This document shows, one piece after another, positions 1-39,560 of a stretch of 64,000 nt of DNA. How positions within the stretch are numbered: position 1 is the stretch's first letter; each line of letters opens with the position of its first letter. Origin of the DNA: Sipunculus nudus (Eukaryota > Annelida > Sipuncula > Golfingiida > Sipunculidae); NCBI GenBank assembly GCA_026874595.1, contig CM049308.1, positions 18,970,001-19,034,000 of the forward strand, read 5' to 3'. The translations under genes and the position numbers were made by a program. The notes beneath the pieces were generated by a model. The model was not told where the DNA came from. It saw only the letters and a program-made list of their open reading frames with translations, and did not search any database.

Positions 1-735
1 ATTATTCATTTTGTATTTGAAATTTAGTAAAATAAGTCAGTCCTGTCTTACTTAAATATATTTCCTAAGGCCTTTTTGCACTGTGTAATTATTTTTACAT
101 TTGAACTGTTTTCAAGTTTTACTATTATTGGACAGGTTACTTAATACCTGTTGCCAACTTAAGATTCTATTTCTACAACATATTTATTAGACTTAAACGT
201 AGAATAAAAGTAGACATATATGACAGCGTGAATTCAGTAAAAGGAACACTGCTTTAAACATTAATTACATTTCCCGTGATCCCAAAAGTTAAAATACATT
301 ACTCTATTCTGCGATGGATAAAGTGTTTTATATTTATCAGATATAAACTTCATCGCTGCGATTGTTGGTTTATATAAAAGCACTCCCTTCAAATTGAGTA
401 GAAATGGGAGAGATTTAACACAACAAATAGACACGGTGAGGCTATAAATCAACTGCTTTTCAAAATATAGTAAAATAACTTAGAAAATTGACCTAGACAT
501 ACAAATTGTCCCCCGCCATACGTTAAATATAGGAAAGTGTGGCATCGTTAATGGGGCGGGAGAGACGGACGGACAGACGCGGACAATTTTAGAAGTCCTC
601 CCTCCTTTCGACGGGGGACTAAATATATTACGTGCTACACTGAATGTTATATAAGATATAAAACATAGGACATTATGGACACTGGATAAAAAATAGAAGG
701 CAAATGTTTGGTGCAAGTAAAGCTAGATCTAGAGG
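1..735. repeat. 3' flank of array copy 1, duplicated at 7830-8420
   Basis: This AT-rich stretch matches 7830-8420 in the same orientation. Shared landmarks include the ATTATTCATTTTGTATTTGAA opening, the CATTTCCCGTGATC block (near 268 and 8107) and the ACAACAAATAGACACGG block. It is the downstream flank of the minus-strand array gene, so copies 1 and 2 share a 3' flank whereas copies 1 and 3 share a 5' flank. No coding sequence was seen in it. Confidence 0.75.
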
Positions 736-1011
736 ATGTGTGGTTCTGATAAGAACCATTAGTGGTACAAAAGTAGCAGCTTGCTGACTTGCACAGTGCT
801 GTTAAACTGACCACACTCCTTGGTACACCTGTAGCTGCATCTTGAGGCCACGCATCACACACTTGTTTCCATGGTTTTGAGCTCGCTTGTAACGTCCGCG
901 AAGGTCATTGACCCTTCCACACATCACCTCTATCTGGTCACATGACCTGTTGAGCTTGTTTTCCAGTATGTGGAGCTGTGAGCGGGGACACTTTCTGGTG
1001 ATAGACTTCAT
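735..1011 (-). pseudogene. Pseudogene copy 1 of the 104-residue array family
   Basis: The reading frame from the ATG at 1011-1009 gives 69 residues that align without gaps to residues 1-69 of the intact copies at 8480-8794 and 11015-11329. It then stops where those copies have the Tyr codon TAC of WSVYQHC; here the codon is TAA. Past the stop the frame still reads QHCASQQAA. A deletion of roughly 80 nt then removes the conserved C-terminus (LMLLEHKMAAS to the terminal MED) and joins directly to 3'-untranslated sequence. The hairpin downstream is kept, with loop TATC (742-757). Both lesions are visible by comparison with the paralogues, so this copy is very probably dead, although a short product is formally possible. 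Confidence 0.8.
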
Positions 1012-5890: not shown

Positions 5891-6240
5891 ACTTACCACG
5901 TCTTGTTGCGGGCTACCTTCTTTAAACCTCAGTGGAAAAGCATAAATTCCAGCTTGTGAAGCTGTGAGTGGGGACACTTTCTGATGATAGCCTCCATTTC
6001 TGTACTACTCTTGTGTGACCCTGTCGAGAAAACTGAAGTTGAGACGTGATGCTGCAGGTTTTATCCCTGCTGTATCCATATGACCGATCATCAGTGACGT
6101 GAGTTTCAATATGAGGATTGTCAGTGAGTAGTTCTCTCCTGGGCTGCATCCTCCTATACTGAGTACCACAGAGTGAGCAGTTATTACTGAGCAGTTCTCG
6201 TCATGCTTGACTGACTTTGTATGTTACCCATGAGAGATCA
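5891..6240 (-). pseudogene. Relic 1 of the array gene: promoter, leader and first ~17 codons
   Basis: Minus-strand sequence matches the array genes from the distal promoter through the TATA-like box (6059-6066) and leader into codons for roughly the first 17 residues (to HKLE). It then diverges into AT-rich sequence with a stop a few codons later. The second relic (15516-15726) breaks at the same base, so both descend from one broken ancestor. The upstream part carries a CRE-like TGACGTGA (6095-6102) as in copy 2. A GTAAGT follows the shared tail on the minus strand near 5891-5896, but I see no reason to call an active exon. Confidence 0.7.
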
Positions 6241-7439: not shown

Positions 7440-7545
7440 CGGTGAAAGGAAAGCTAGATCTGGAGGATGTGTAGTTCTGACAAGAACAATTGGTGGTACA
7501 AGACCAAGACAATCAGTCCTCCATCCCGGCTGTTTAAATTCCCCA
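7440..7545 (-). pseudogene. Relic 4: 3' end of a lost array gene
   Basis: Minus-strand sequence matches the last codons (including PxRMED and its TGA), the 24-nt spacer and the hairpin region of the intact genes, then breaks into unrelated sequence. The hairpin at 7473-7488 has lost its outermost base pair (both sides are T), unlike the intact copies. The coding body upstream is gone, replaced by the AT-rich tract at 7560-7790. Confidence 0.7.
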
Positions 7546-8420: not shown

Positions 8421-8439
8421 CTAGATCTAGAGGATGTGT

Positions 8440-8455
8440 GGTTCTGACAAGAACC
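8440..8455 (-). promoter_or_regulatory. Histone-type 3' stem-loop downstream of array copy 2
   Basis: On the gene strand the sequence is GGTTCT, loop TGTC, AGAACC: a perfect 6-bp stem with a 4-nt loop, 24 nt after the stop codon. Histone mRNAs end in a 6-bp stem with a 4-nt loop of the form GGYYCT-TNTN-AGRRCC, flanked by CCAAA and ACCCA. Here the flanks are CCAAT and ACACA, and both U-type loop positions are kept. I see no clear purine-rich downstream element, so SLBP/U7-type processing is an inference from the hairpin alone. Confidence 0.55.
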
Positions 8456-8479
8456 ATTGGTGGTACAAGACCAATACAA

Positions 8480-8794
8480 TCAGTCCTCCATCCTGGCTGG
8501 TGAGGACTCACCACCTACATGACTAGCAGCCATCTTGTGCTCCAACAGCATCAGAGCAGCAGCTTGCTGACTGGCACAGTGCTGGTACACTGACCACACT
8601 TCTTGATACACCTGTATCTGCATCTTGAGGCTGCGCATCACACACTTGTTTCCATGGATTTGAGCTCGCTTGTAACGTCTGCGAAGGTCATTGACCCTTC
8701 CACACAGCACCTCTATCTGGTCACATGACCTGCTGAGCTTGTTTTCCAGCTTGTGAAGCTGTGAGCGGGGACACTTTCTGATGACAGACTTCAT
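8480..8794 (-). CDS. Array copy 2: 104-residue basic, helical, cysteine-containing protein of unknown family
   Basis: This is an intact single-exon frame from ATG (8794-8792) to TGA. I do not recognise the family. Residues ~11-45 look like one amphipathic helix with coiled-coil spacing of L/I/V (L13, L16, L20, I27, L30, V34, L37), ending in an RRRYKR basic cluster (38-43). Residues ~50-91 look like a second long helix (MRSLKMQ, then VYQEVWSVYQHC, then AAALMLLEHKMAAS). A polar tail ends in MED. Five cysteines (8, 24, 31, 51, 73) are shared with copy 3. There is no signal peptide or membrane segment, so it is probably intracellular, and a helical hairpin that self-associates is plausible. The start is fixed by homology across three copies and a TATA-like box 62 nt upstream. 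It differs from copy 3 at 8 of 104 residues. Confidence 0.75.
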   Translation of the reverse strand: MKSVIRKCPRSQLHKLENKLSRSCDQIEVLCGRVNDLRRRYKRAQIHGNKCVMRSLKMQIQVYQEVWSVYQHCASQQAAALMLLEHKMAASHVGGESSPARMED

Positions 8795-8855: not shown

Positions 8856-8899
8856 TTTTATCCCAGCTGTATCCATATGACAGATCATCAGTGACGTGA
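8856..8899 (-). promoter_or_regulatory. Core promoter of array copy 2: TATA-like box plus CRE-like site
   Basis: GGATAAAA (minus strand, 8856-8863) lies 62 nt before the ATG, predicting a leader of about 30-40 nt. A TGACGTGA word (8892-8899 as read on the plus strand) is one base off the CRE palindrome and lies ~30 nt further upstream. The same pair occurs in relic 1. Copies 1 and 3 share the TATA-like box but have unrelated sequence beyond it. Confidence 0.5.
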
Positions 8900-9099
8900 G
8901 TTTCAATGTGATGAATGTCAGTGAGTAGTTCTCCCCTGGTCTGCATCCTCCATACTGAGTACCACAGATTGAGCTGTTATAAATGAGCAGGTCTCTTCAT
9001 GCTTGACTGACTTTGGATGTTCCCCGTGAGGAATCATCAGCTACTCCATGATTACGGAAGTTATTGCTTGAGTGACTTTAAAGTTCATTACCTGGCTTT

Positions 9100-10920: not shown

Positions 10921-10974
10921 GATATTTTGTAAACAAATGTTTGATGTAAGGTAAGCTAGATCTAGAGGATGTGT

Positions 10975-10990
10975 GGTTCTGACGAGAACC
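10975..10990 (-). promoter_or_regulatory. Histone-type 3' stem-loop downstream of array copy 3
   Basis: GGTTCT, loop CGTC, AGAACC on the gene strand, 24 nt after the stop codon. The stem is identical to copy 2. The first loop base is C instead of T, which weakens the match to the histone consensus. Confidence 0.5.
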
Positions 10991-11014: not shown

Positions 11015-11329
11015 TCAGTCCTCCATCCTGGCTGGTGAGAACTCACCGCCTACATGACTAGCAGCCATCTTGTGCTCCAACAGCATCAGAGCAGCAGCTT
11101 GCTGACTGGCACAGTGCTGGTACACTGACCACACTCCTTGGTACACTTGAAGCTGCATCTTGAGGCTGCGCATTACACACTTGTTTCCATGGTTTTGGGC
11201 TCGCTTGTAACGTCTGCGAAGGTCATTGACCCTTCCACACAGCACCTCTATCTGGTCACATGACCTGTTGAGCTTGTTTTCCAGCTTGTGGAGCTGTGAT
11301 CGGGGACACTTTCTGGTGATAAACTTCAT
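11015..11329 (-). CDS. Array copy 3: 104-residue basic, helical, cysteine-containing protein of unknown family
   Basis: This is an intact single-exon paralogue of the gene at 8480-8794, the same length, differing at positions 3, 4, 5, 21, 46, 60, 65 and 97. All five cysteines, the RRRYKR cluster and the MED terminus are kept. The frame is open for 20 more codons to an upstream ATG at 11389, but that stretch is leader sequence in the other copies. The homologous start at 11329, 62 nt from the TATA-like box, is therefore preferred. It sits head-to-tail with copy 2 and shares its 5' flank with pseudogene copy 1. Unknown function; probably intracellular. Confidence 0.75.
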   Translation of the reverse strand: MKFITRKCPRSQLHKLENKLNRSCDQIEVLCGRVNDLRRRYKRAQNHGNKCVMRSLKMQLQVYQGVWSVYQHCASQQAAALMLLEHKMAASHVGGEFSPARMED

Positions 11330-11398: not shown

Positions 11399-12776
11399 CT
11401 GCTGTATCCGTTGACAGACAAATAAGCAGTTCTCCCCTACTCGACACCGTAAAGTGAGTAGTTCTTACTGAGCAGTTGTCGTCACGATTCACTGGATTTC
11501 GCTTCCTGTTGGTATTAGCTAATTATGACAGGGAATACACAGTGTCTATTATTGACACGGTTTATTAACGATACATCCAAAAGTAGCATATATGAAGAAG
11601 ATAGTTCAAAATTGACCACAAAAGAAACCTGGGAAACAAGAACTGTCTCCTCAAAATTGACCACAAAAGAAACCTGGGAAACAAGAACTGTCTCCATACA
11701 TGAGAAATAGCGTGGTTCATGTGAAATCTATATTTACTCTGTATTATATAATAAAGAAACTGTTGATACTTGTCCAAATGATACCAGTGATTGATCTGAT
11801 TTATTTTTTCAAAGTAAAATTTCAGGTTCATTTATAATTATTTATTTAATTTCTTATTGTTATTGGACTGTTAGAACTCACATTTACACATATATGCGCG
11901 CGCACACTTATATACACACACTTGGGCTTGGTATCGGTCTACCTGTTCAGGTACAATACGTATTATGATACACTTAATTCGATACCCGATATACGTTATA
12001 AAAGCTCTGAGGAAACAATTCTTCTTATTTTGTTAAAATACAGCATATCGATTATACTCTGCATTTAGGCTGGATATTAACTAAATGAAAATAAGTTAAA
12101 GCTAATAAAACAGTAAATAAAAGCACATGATTAAAAATCCATTTTGTATACCACGTCATGCCAAGCAGGCATATCTTGTTTAAGTTCTTATCTTGTTGAA
12201 ATCTTAACTGCAAAATAACATAAAAAAAAGTGGCTACGGCTTTTAAAGTATAATTAAGTTATACAATGTACTTGTATCCATAATCCATATTTGTTAAGAG
12301 TCGTTTTTCTTCGATACCATCAATACACTATGCAAAGCGTATCGGTAACCGTATCGACGTTGTGTTTCGAATCGTATCCATATATCGGTATACTGATACA
12401 GACCTAACACACACATACACCCCACACGAAAACATGCAGCGCATAGTTTTAATACAGGACTGTTCCAGGAGGGTGTATAAACAATGTTTTACTTTTTCTT
12501 TAATGTAAACTGAACGGTTGCTATAGAAACTCTTGTCATGACGATAATCTTAAAGTTAAAAAGGTTCTCTGCAATATATAAATACAAGTATTTCCCACAG
12601 TGGTGGATTTTTTAAAGATTTAGGAAATTACTGATTTAATATGTTTTATTTTTAAATCGATATTTCTTGGCCACTAAGCACTCAAAGCATTCCATTTTCA
12701 ACACGTGGAATTGTAATAGAATTTTATTAAGGCAAATTTCGAAACAGAATGTTATTTACGTATGTTCCCAAATAAA

Positions 12777-15515: not shown

Positions 15516-15726
15516 TTTATAATTTACCACATCTTGTTGCGGACCAGCTTCTATACACCTCAGTAGAAAAGCATAAATTCCAGCTTGTGGAGCTGTGAGC
15601 GGGGACACTTGCTGATGATAGACTTCATTTCTGTTCCACTCTTGTGTGAGACTGACGAGAAAACTGAAGTTGAGGCATGATGCTGCATGCAGATTTTATC
15701 CCTGCTGTATCCATATGACAGTGACG
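15516..15726 (-). pseudogene. Relic 2 of the array gene
   Basis: It has the same structure and the same internal breakpoint (after the HKLE codons) as relic 1. The TATA-like box is at 15694-15701. Its distal promoter is replaced abruptly at ~15727 by LINE coding sequence. Confidence 0.7.
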
Positions 15727-17019: not shown

Positions 17020-17560
17020 TCTGTTCCATAGTTTATCACGCTTTTGAAGTCTGCGAAGGGTCACTGACCTTTAAAACAACTGTTGTCTGGTCACATCACC
17101 TGTTCAGTCTTGTAGATTTCAGGACCAGGCAATATTGAACAATTTATGTATTTTACTCGTGTGGGACAACAGTCATTCGAATCCCTGTTTCAGGGGGAAA
17201 TGGGAAGAAACAGAGCGTATTACAATTCTAAAGTGGTACGTGATATCTCCGTACGTAAGGCACATCTATATACTAATATAGTGCACAGTTTCGTCAATTT
17301 CTTGATAAAAACACAACCACAAATAGGGATTCGAGCGACTGTGGTGAGACTGATGAGAAAATTGATGTTGAGCCATGATGCTGCGGGTTTTATGCCTGCT
17401 GTATCCTTGTGACAGATCTTCAGTGACATGATTTTGATGTGAGGAATGTCAGTGAGTAGTTCTCCCCTGATCCTTATTTTCCACACTGAGTAACCACGGA
17501 GAGAGTGAGCAGTTAATAGTGAGAACTTGTCTGCATGCTCAACTGGCCTCTGAGGGTTCT
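17020..17560 (-). pseudogene. Relic 3 of the array gene, split by unrelated sequence
   Basis: 17025-17115 matches the middle of the coding sequence (the GCGAAGG-TCA-TGACC and CTGGTCACAT-ACCTGTT words), with several changes. About 220 bp of unrelated DNA follows. 17338-17560 then matches the leader, the TATA-like box (near 17388) and the distal promoter of the copy 2 class. It is the most diverged copy and marks the right edge of the array. Confidence 0.65.
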
Positions 17561-19604: not shown

Positions 19605-20621
19605 ATGGCCAATAGCACGGAAACATTCAAACTGACAAATTTCACGTCACCAGGGTCAACGAGAGGGATGGAAGATACAGGTATATACCCGGAAGTTGCG
19701 ACGGTTCTTTTGATCGTGGTGACCGCTATTGCAGTTTTAGGAGCCGTAGAAAACCTTGTGGCATTGACCATCCTTTTACGACATCATTCGGCGGTCATCT
19801 CGGAGCGTGGAGGTTTCACCATATCTCTCGCTGCTTCTGATTTTGTGCTGGTTTCCTGTCACGTGACACAGTACTTAGTCTATAGTCTACAGGCAGACTA
19901 TACTCAGGGTTTGAACTTTGCCCTGTTCTCAAAATTCATGATTATTCTGCAGTGGGGTAGCATCACGACTAGTATGTGGTCTCTGTATGCACTAGTGATG
20001 GATCGTTATTTAAGTATACAGTGCCCAACTGATCACGAACGACGGATACCCAAGTCTAGGATACCCCTGATATGTGTTCTCATATGGCTGCTGTCTTATT
20101 CCTTGAACTCGCTGTATATAATCGTCATGAAACCGATTATATACATATTTGTGACAATAGCTGTGCGAATCCATCCGGCAATAGGTACAAACATTATGTG
20201 CTTACTATTCCACTGTTTCCTCAGAAGGAGACTGTTACGTCATAGGCCTGGACGAAGTGTGACACAAGAAGGGATGACGTCATGGTCGACACGTCTTCTC
20301 GACGTCAAAAAGTCTTTGGTGATGTTTAGTGTCACGTGTTCGCTGCAGCTGTTTGGGGCAATCGCCTGCACGACGGCTCAGGTACTACACATGGCTAAAT
20401 GTGGTATTGCGTGCCCCCTTGCACCGGAAAATGATTTAATGTTTATTGTTCAAGATATTGCGGTTACCGCCATTTTTCTATCAGTCGCTCTAAATCCATG
20501 GATTCACACGTTTCGTCAGAGAGAACTCCTCGGGCCTTGTTGCCTTCATTATCGCTCAGATAACCGATCATACTCATCCATGATGAGAAGTCCTGCCGAC
20601 AGTGATTCATCGGCAGACTAA
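19605..20621 (+). CDS. Class A (rhodopsin-like) GPCR, orphan, intronless, ECL2 nearly absent
   Basis: This is a 338-residue seven-helix receptor, expected in the plasma membrane and coupling to G proteins. Class A hallmarks are TM1 ~31-58 (GAVEN, N50), TM2 ~70-93 (LAASD, D79), the TM3 end with DRY at 133-135, TM4 ~153-174 (W161), TM5 ~178-207 (P191), TM6 ~236-262 and TM7 ~279-300 with NPWIH at 297-301. The N-terminus has two N-glycosylation sequons (N3, N12). C312-C313 after TM7 suit palmitoylation, and the tail is Ser-rich. Odd points: only about three residues separate TM4 from TM5, so extracellular loop 2 is missing. The usual TM3 disulphide cysteine position is Ser109, the CWxP motif of TM6 is not evident, and NPxxY ends in His. 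The ATG has a good context (A at -3, G at +4). The ligand is unknown. Confidence 0.85.
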   Translation: MANSTETFKLTNFTSPGSTRGMEDTGIYPEVATVLLIVVTAIAVLGAVENLVALTILLRHHSAVISERGGFTISLAASDFVLVSCHVTQYLVYSLQADYTQGLNFALFSKFMIILQWGSITTSMWSLYALVMDRYLSIQCPTDHERRIPKSRIPLICVLIWLLSYSLNSLYIIVMKPIIYIFVTIAVRIHPAIGTNIMCLLFHCFLRRRLLRHRPGRSVTQEGMTSWSTRLLDVKKSLVMFSVTCSLQLFGAIACTTAQVLHMAKCGIACPLAPENDLMFIVQDIAVTAIFLSVALNPWIHTFRQRELLGPCCLHYRSDNRSYSSMMRSPADSDSSAD

Positions 20622-38059: not shown

Positions 38060-39036
38060 AAATTGGCCACCATTACATGAACTATGCGACATACGTATTT
38101 ATTTATTTTAGATGTAACTTCTGATTTTTTTTAATATGTTCATGCGCATAGAAATGCATGTACTTAAAGCTGCCCATTCACCTACCCTTTGAAAAAGAAT
38201 TTATGTGATTTCTAAAGATTCCTCTGTGTATATATTAATGATCTAAGGGTAATTTTGGTTGTGAAAATTCTTATAACGCCTCCTTCAAAGATGAATGAAT
38301 TTGTTTATAAACAACGTGTTTGTAAATACAGCAATGTTGACAAACTGAAAAACATGTAACCAAAGGTGGTAGGTTGCATATATGCGGAGGTAGATAGGTC
38401 ACTTGTTATAAAACGCCATTCGCAAAGCGCTGGCTTATTTGACTTGGCACCAGATGCCCTTGTTGATTTTTTTTTTATTTTGGCGGGCCCCCACATATTA
38501 CAAACACGTTTAATATAAACAAAACAGGCAGCTTGTGTGCGATGACAGATCACAGCCATTTAGGTTAAACTTCTTGAGGACACATGCATTGCCCGTTGAG
38601 CACAGGAAGTTAAAATTACATGCTGGCAGGTCATCTGTGGAAATTAAACACAAAAATAGGTCTCTGTGACCTAGATCCTCTGATGATGAAAACACAGGTT
38701 TCAGCACCTCTAAAGATAAGACTCTTAACAGTTATATATACGGAAAGGGCCAGGTTTCTCAGTTAATTCTGTTTTTATGGAGTTTTACTTCTATATATTA
38801 AATAATAACCTTTTTCATGTTTTAGCATTCTTCAAATCGTACAGCTGTTTGACACAAAGTTCCAGTCACATCAAGACATGAATTTTATCAAGAGACTGAA
38901 TAGAGAGGGCGCAAAGAACTAAGCATTTCAGTTGCTCATGAGTCTGACCTACAGCAAGGCATAAACACCAAGCATTAGCCAGAGGGAGTTCTTGTCCTGT
39001 ACCAATCATGTAGTCAAGTCAGCACCATCCGAGTCC
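38060..39036. other. Intergenic DNA, no gene seen
   Basis: AT-rich, with no domain-bearing frame or recognisable RNA. Confidence 0.5.
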
Positions 39037-39560
39037 GAGAACCAGTCCGAGGCCAGACCACTCGAGAACCAGTCCCAGTCCAGACCACTCGAGTACAAGT
39101 CCGAGCCCAGGCCACTCGAGTACAAGTCCGAGTCAAGGCAACTCGAGTACAAGTCCCAGTCCAGGCCACTCGAGTACAAGTCCCAGTCCAGGCCACTCGA
39201 GTACAAGTCCAAGTCCAGGCCACTCGAGTACAAGTCCCAGTCCAGGCCACTCGAGTACAAGTCCGAATCCAGGTCACTCGAGTACAAGTCAGAGTCCAGG
39301 CAACTCGAGTACAAGTCCGAGTCCAGGCCACTCGAGTACAAGTCCCCGTCCAGACCGCTCGAGTACAAGTCCGAGTCCAGGCCACTCGAGTACAAGTCCG
39401 AGTCCAGGCCACTCGAGTACAAGTCCGAGTCCAGACCACTCGAGTACAAGTCCCAGTCCAGGCCACTCGAGTACAAGTCCGAGTCCAGACCACTCGAGTA
39501 CAAGTCCCAGTCCAGACCACTCGAGTACAAGTCCACCTCCTTCGAGTCCGAGTCATTTGG
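39037..39560. repeat. 27-bp minisatellite, 18 full units, grown from the GACTCG-type element
   Basis: The unit is CACTCGAGTACAAGTCC-GAGTCCAGGC with few substitutions. Because 27 is a multiple of 3 and the unit lacks stops, several frames stay open on both strands (for example a nine-residue LEYKSESRP repeat in one frame). None has upstream coding context, and the plus-strand frame has no ATG. The GAGTCC-CTCGAG words are the inverse of those in the dispersed elements at 24515, 42765 and 57525, so I read this as repeat expansion, not a gene. Confidence 0.85.

Follow-up and report, generated by a model that had tools for sequence, protein, structure and literature searches.

To our knowledge, the poly(A)-free ending formed at a 3' stem-loop is usually described as peculiar to histone mRNAs. 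In vertebrates and sea urchins a GAAAGA-like histone downstream element (HDE) is found, and the histone hairpin of Caenorhabditis elegans has a C at the first loop position. According to the accessible part of one study, H2A.X mRNAs have both stem-loop ends and poly(A) ends, and human cells contain poly(A)-minus non-histone mRNAs such as znf460 and sesn3, there with no link to the histone hairpin (PMC3188798). In the literature covered, which lay mostly outside the subscription journals, no earlier description was found of a histone-type hairpin in a non-histone gene; the accessible parts of PMC12551290, PMC1924863, PMC3188798 and PMC5881035 mention no such gene, and a wider search on histone ends, the early embryo and U7 in molluscs and annelids gave no relevant title.

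The genes described here resemble the 3' end of replication-dependent histone mRNAs (RF00032) in a 6-bp stem and a 4-nt loop with U at loop position 3 and usually at position 1, in A/C-rich flanks (CCAA... and ACACA/ACCACA) and in a hairpin placed tens of nucleotides after the stop codon. With the histone genes of the same genome they also share a downstream element at equal distance and an arrangement as tandem, apparently intronless genes. However, the family does not encode histones; the downstream element, in the family as in the genome's own histone genes, is AGATCT-like, unlike a GAAAGA-like HDE; and several subfamilies carry upstream repeats of TGAGTA/TGAGCAG type, unlike the three own histone promoters compared. 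The C-first loop of C. elegans recurs in one copy (hairpin at 10975) and at two other loci (L023 and L024), whereas U is the first base in most family loops seen; in a further difference from C. elegans, a downstream element is present.

The gene at 8440..8794 and its neighbours

The window, as the whole analysed stretch of 64,000 nucleotides is called here (C3:18970001-19034000), contains a portion of a tandem array whose genes are small, apparently intronless and code for a protein with a predicted two-helix hairpin. An intact single-frame ORF of 104 aa lies on the minus strand at 8480..8794, and the ORF list, tblastn, purifying selection and the AlphaFold2 model identify it as a family member. 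The initial annotation had placed a stem-loop, GGTTCT-TGTC-AGAACC, 24 nt 3' of its stop codon, and direct reading confirms this hairpin (minus strand, 8455..8440), which has CCACCAAT on its 5' side and ACACA on its 3' side. It is also correct that no AATAAA is near, the closest AATAAA/ATTAAA downstream being 410 nt off. The further remark that an obvious purine-rich downstream element is missing does not stand, as an element 11-13 nt past the hairpin is present that is AGATCT-like rather than GAAAGA-like; by eye, no classical GAAAGA-type element was seen. In this gene the putative HDE is CTAGATCTAG (8421..8430, minus strand), its AGATC beginning 11 nt past the stem-loop, a spacing as in the own histone genes and in divergent family members. 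A TATA-like box, GATAAAA (8856..8862, minus strand), found by copy alignment about 62 nt upstream of the ATG, may serve as a promoter element; the same heptamer occurs in five of the six copies with an aligned upstream region, the sixth having CATAAAA, and by eye a TATA-like box is seen in most other upstream regions compared.

The remaining copies in the window, all on the minus strand, are in different states of preservation. A second intact ORF of 104 aa, 92% identical in protein comparison (11015..11329), is followed by the stem-loop GGTTCT-CGTC-AGAACC (10975..10990), in which the C at the first loop position, already pointed out for this third copy, is real, and by the AGATCT of a putative downstream element (10958..10963, read from the sequence). 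A pseudogene copy with an internal TAA and without its C-terminal part (760..1011; copy alignment and tblastn) has the stem-loop GGTTCT-TATC-AGAACC (742..757) and the AGATCT of a putative downstream element (725..730, likewise from sequence reading). Copy alignment further reveals a broken copy reduced to the upstream region and the first codons (5947..6213), the decayed stem-loop of a broken copy that has lost its end pair (7473..7488), a 5' piece of another copy, lacking a stem-loop (15578..15700, end approximate), and an upstream-region fragment of a further degraded copy (17340..17545, ends approximate). The broken copies at 5940-5965 and 15560-15590 end after 17 codons at the same junction, CTGGAA followed directly by TTTATGCTTTTC. 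The break therefore probably came first, and one of the two copies then arose from the other by duplication.

When up to one mismatch is tolerated, GGTTCTNNNNAGAACC occurs three times in the window (742, 8440 and 10975) against 0.10 expected from shuffles. Each of the three hairpins lies 3' of one paralogous copy, so that they do not count as independent. The window contains 25 ORFs that encode 80 aa or more, and of these the two family ORFs alone are followed by such a hairpin at 100 nt or less.

The genome's own histone genes as a reference

A search with H4 as query led to the core histone genes of the genome (47 matches), and the sequence of a single repeat unit, about 5.35 kb long, was examined (L061). 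In its H4, H3, H2B and H2A genes alike, a hairpin of 16 nt begins 32-45 nt from the first base of the stop codon; these four 3' ends recur in a unit of a second type of histone array (L064). Beyond the hairpin, at a distance of 7-9 nt, come CATTCATATCTAG (H4), CATTCAGTTCTCAG (H3), CATCAAGATCTGAG (H2B) and CATTCAGTTCTAAG (H2A); the AGATC of the family is identical in H2B and has near variants in the other three. These ends point to an AGATCT-like downstream element in this species, and its position and conservation suggest that it may bind U7. The genome also encodes an SLBP RNA-binding domain (PF15247) at C1:29647354-29648345, detected as two exon matches of 60.7 and 30.5 bits at a cut-off of 27. 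A search with the Rfam model RF00066 did not find a U7 snRNA; it gave six chance-level matches only, and this model also produces matches in 12 of 14 prokaryote control genomes.

At the gathering score of the Rfam Histone3 model (RF00032), 34 bits, no match is reported in the window, and none of the four core hairpins of the own histone unit is reported either (H4 33.3, H3 26.2, H2A 22.2 and H2B 21.5 bits). A position below the gathering score is therefore not counterevidence for the window hairpins. In E-value mode the model matches only 742, 8440 and 10975 in the window, with 25.2, 23.3 and 19.4 bits (E for all families 0.0094, 0.047 and 1.4), each short of the gathering score. A second covariance model, R1, has the four own histone mRNA ends (H2A, H2B, H3 and H4) as its sole source, and its E-values are rough. 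It gives the same three copies 16.7, 15.0 and 12.6 bits, the last (10975) with an E of 0.61 and not significant alone; the highest-scoring window match that is presumed to be due to chance has 15.2 bits. The window copies are unconvincing by R1 alone and are carried by their homology to the rest of the family, in which Histone3 scores reach 35.5 bits in L051, above both the gathering score and the own H4, 31.7 bits in L047 and 25.0 bits in L011; L043, L046, L049 and L050 are not matched by Histone3 at E <=10.

Hairpin and downstream element across the gene family

The genome searched comprises 1.43 Gb in 153 contigs. With the window protein as query, tblastn yields at least 89 matches at E <=1, 73 of the 89 in three clusters (C3 18.77-18.98 Mb, C3 31.69-31.74 Mb and C4 58.02-58.06 Mb), while a query from a divergent member (L050) yields at least 131 at E <=0.01, of which 120 are outside these clusters. 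An array at C3 79.20-79.26 Mb holds 27 matches in 2.03-kb units, and one at C2 72.58-72.69 Mb holds 60 in near-regular tandem units of 1.66 kb, an arrangement like that of histone genes but placed apart from the H4 matches; the one unit of it that was read (L065) has the hairpin GGCTCT-TGTC-AGAGCC. Single family genes occur elsewhere besides these arrays. Where the initial annotation had envisaged a rare use of the signal by one gene, the union of both queries amounts to at least about 190 matching places on nine contigs (C2, C3, C4, C5, C9, C10, C11, C13 and C14), a count (about 193) that includes some genes split into two matches and some pseudogenes and that rests on match numbers which are lower bounds. 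A non-histone family of this extent with both signals would break the histone-only rule.

An alignment of 26 of the proteins spans about 90 residues and has C24, R40, R43 and A44 (window numbering) invariant; the median pairwise identity of 29% (325 pairs) indicates that the subfamilies are old. In all of 14 comparisons dN/dS is below 0.4 (for example 0.033/0.136 for the window pair and 0.123/0.879 = 0.14 for the L051 core; the comparison of the L043 core is saturated, with a dS of 3.7), which argues that the family genes are protein-coding and under purifying selection. The members read have a single open frame, which suggests that the genes are intronless. One scan of viral contigs, with 11 pattern stretches, confirmed no viral relatives of the family.

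A histone-type hairpin with 6 bp and 4 nt follows within 130 nt of the stop codon in 60 of 67 family genes examined, a set in which array copies that hardly differ are numerous, which includes both window genes, and from which two places with early stops (L039 and the second place of L040) were excluded. The independent evidence for the hairpin rests on the divergent members rather than on the array copies. Measured from the first base of the stop codon, the start of the hairpin lies at 25-77 nt in the family and at 32-45 nt in the own histone genes. It reads GGCCCT-TTTA-AGGGCC in L051, GGCTCT-TCTA-AGAGCC in L047 and TGCTCT-TTTC-AGAGCA in L049, L050 and L056, the loop TTTC of the latter being that of human histone mRNAs. 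Twenty further loci of 654-777 bases were chosen from the matches of the L050 query before their 3' flanks had been seen, and as a set they are partly redundant (L069 and L083 are similar to L068, L082 to L081, L079 to L077 and L078 to L076, and L084 comes from the L050 array). The hairpin is found in 19 of the 20, mostly as GGCTCT-TNTC-AGAGCC, and R1 likewise detects hairpin and downstream element in 19 of the 20, at 26.1-44.3 bits. Seven of the 67 genes fall outside the count of 60. No hairpin was seen after the gene in L067 and L048, and at the gene end of L048 R1 finds nothing. In L026 the hairpin is retained and the stop codon lost, and in L043, L044, L045 and L046 the hairpins are altered while the downstream element is retained, as CAGATCTAG in all four.

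Among the other members, R1 scores are 34.4 bits in L051, 27.9-32.2 in L050/L056 and 30.1 in L047; in the C4 cluster five places have 22.6-24.3 bits and two more 16.9 and 13.8. Only 13.8-19.2 bits are obtained for one copy each of L042 and L041 and for L043 and L044 (19.2 each), L049 (18.2), L046 (17.7) and L045 (14.2). The early-stop places still have 24.3 (L039) and 23.1 bits (second place of L040), and negative controls, loci with unrelated exact copies of the 16-mer GGTTCTTGTCAGAACC (L001 and L052-L055), stay at or below 10.8 bits. In L070 two perfect histone-type hairpins stand in tandem behind a single family gene (positions 465-510), their starts 30 nt apart, with 35.5 bits for the downstream and 20.2 for the upstream one.

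Of 22 aligned family rows, 19 show the AGATC motif at 11-13 nt beyond the hairpin, once the spacing is corrected in three rows with four extra leading bases (raw 15); L049, L050 and L066 have variants of the element. Pairing in the stem is complete in 12 family hairpins (72 of 72 cells), with double changes at three pairs, and likewise in 22 family hairpins aligned with the four histone hairpins (156 of 156 cells), with double changes at four of the six pairs. As the 26 rows were picked for having a hairpin, the complete pairing is in part a product of that choice, which does not hold for the double changes. Slid controls for this alignment reach at most 55% pairing, and the covariation score of the 26 sequences is 0.369 against 0.160 when shuffled, with none of 500 shuffles as high. 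The family hairpin is a histone-type one, with a 6-bp stem, a 4-nt loop closed by U-A, and compensatory changes.

Probable processing of the mRNAs, alternative explanations and the encoded protein

The central claim of the initial annotation, that a non-histone gene carries histone-type 3' processing signals, is supported by the compensatory changes, by R1, by the downstream element and by the SLBP gene. The genome sequence shows the two signals, the distance between them, their retention with compensatory changes and an SLBP domain, and at this level it strongly supports processing of SLBP/U7 type for what would be non-histone mRNAs. SLBP would bind the family stem-loop and a U7-type snRNP would pair with the AGATCT-like element, upon which cleavage would take place a few nucleotides beyond the stem-loop and the transcript would remain without a poly(A) tail; the many tandem copies may supply bulk protein quickly in rapidly dividing cells, as they do for histones. 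U7 pairing, cleavage, lack of a poly(A) tail and expression in S phase, the germline or the early embryo are what such signals would predict. A histone-type stem-loop and downstream element that direct poly(A)-free, SLBP/U7-type processing for tandem genes of a two-helix protein are very probably the best overall explanation. It is also quite likely, if a little less so, that an old non-histone family with several subfamilies has come under the SLBP/U7 pathway and forms a second class of replication-dependent (or early-embryo/germline) mRNAs, so that poly(A)-free histone-type ends would not be restricted to histones in animals. If true, the family would offer a natural system for studying what purpose SLBP control serves when the product is not a histone, and its mode of processing would account for how such genes could be missed in RNA data and transcriptomes selected for poly(A).

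The hairpin could instead act in the cytoplasm only, in translation, stability or mRNA localisation via SLBP or another protein, the mRNAs being cleaved and polyadenylated further downstream. This would fit the 4 of 19 family copies checked (L035, L040, L047 and L049) in which an AATAAA/ATTAAA follows 48-76 nt past the hairpin and which, in having a stem-loop and a possible poly(A) signal downstream, are like H2A.X-type mRNAs, known in both forms according to the accessible part of that study (PMC3188798), although H2A.X, unlike the family product, is a histone. However, the other 15 copies have no such signal within 100 nt, and for the window copies it is 410 nt away, 480 nt away or absent within 500 nt; the own H3 gene, for its part, has one at 40 nt. 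Moreover, the downstream element, which is removed in processed histone mRNA, is kept at near-fixed spacing in the family, which fits U7-type processing and would be unexpected for a purely cytoplasmic hairpin. A cytoplasmic role alone is thus considered unlikely.

Rather less likely again is that the hairpins are functionless relics in recent copies of a founder that captured a histone 3' end by recombination. The window copies, with 92% protein identity and non-independent hairpins, could be read in this way, and so could the pseudogene copy that retains its hairpin; but a relic should have decayed, as has the one at 7473, and yet old subfamilies with a median identity of 29% keep the hairpin with double changes at four of six pairs. 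R1 on the 20 loci and the covariation have already largely refuted this reading, while capture as such is a possible origin of the hairpin.

If the family were a strongly diverged histone or sperm nuclear basic protein, a histone-type mRNA end would be unsurprising, and the window members are indeed small, basic (pI 9.7-9.8), multicopy and apparently intronless. Nevertheless, AlphaFold2 predicts for the two window proteins, at a mean pLDDT of 84.5 and a pTM of 0.60, a long hairpin of two helices (9-47 and 50-93), compared with the helix-strand-helix of the histone fold. The Foldseek matches listed against the PDB are ESCRT-III, PspA/Vipp1 and other helical hairpins, none of those listed at E <0.001, and no histone is among the Pfam matches listed, which contain no convincing family, or among the PDB profile matches, the best being a fragment of B-cell receptor-associated protein 31 (E 0.012). 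The description of the protein as non-histone is thereby borne out, and a diverged histone or sperm nuclear protein is very improbable. The label "basic" holds for the window members but is not a family trait, as L046 and L047 have a pI below 6; DNA packaging is therefore not a safe guess for the function. Taken together, the Pfam, PDB sequence and PDB fold searches give weak coiled-coil or helical matches only. The helical-hairpin shape is like that of the ESCRT-III Snf7/CHMP3 core, PspA/Vipp1 and the KIF21A antiparallel coil (TM-score by query length 0.42-0.78 among the matches listed), which, with no match to a sequence family, probably reflects a shared simple shape only. A stretch resembling the C-terminal domain of CDK2AP1 was compared by BLASTP with an approximate query fragment and rejected (14.2 bits, E 0.24). 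A likely role would be that of a small dimerising or scaffold protein needed in bulk in dividing cells.

That the hairpin is an inverted repeat arisen by chance, or belongs to a mobile element, is hardly credible: the exact GGTTCTTGTCAGAACC does occur at six unrelated places in the genome, by eye some of them in repeats, but 39 of its 45 exact matches lie inside the three gene clusters, the loci with the six others (L001 and L052-L055) remain at or below 10.8 bits with R1, and a chance hairpin is ruled out by this cluster location, the R1 controls, the 19 of 20 loci, the covariation and the two of 25 window ORFs.

Upstream of the window genes and of L041 and L047-L051, motifs of TGAGTA/TGAGCAG type exceed the shuffled expectation; in the window the repeats lie at 8890-9010 and 11400-11500 on the minus strand, upstream of family ATGs, and in L049 TGAGTA or TACTCA occurs eight times per 600 bases against 0.4 expected. 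The upstream regions of L043 and L046 show no excess of these motifs. They are possibly a shared transcription-factor site. As three own histone promoters have one TGAGTA each in H2A and H2B and none in H3, timing of the family genes may be set by a factor other than that for histones. Elsewhere in the window, by eye, a 338-aa ORF (19605-20621, plus strand) has the look of a rhodopsin-type GPCR, and a 180-aa ORF (39014-39556, minus strand) with tandem repeats of CTRV(A/V)WT type is probably a translated minisatellite.
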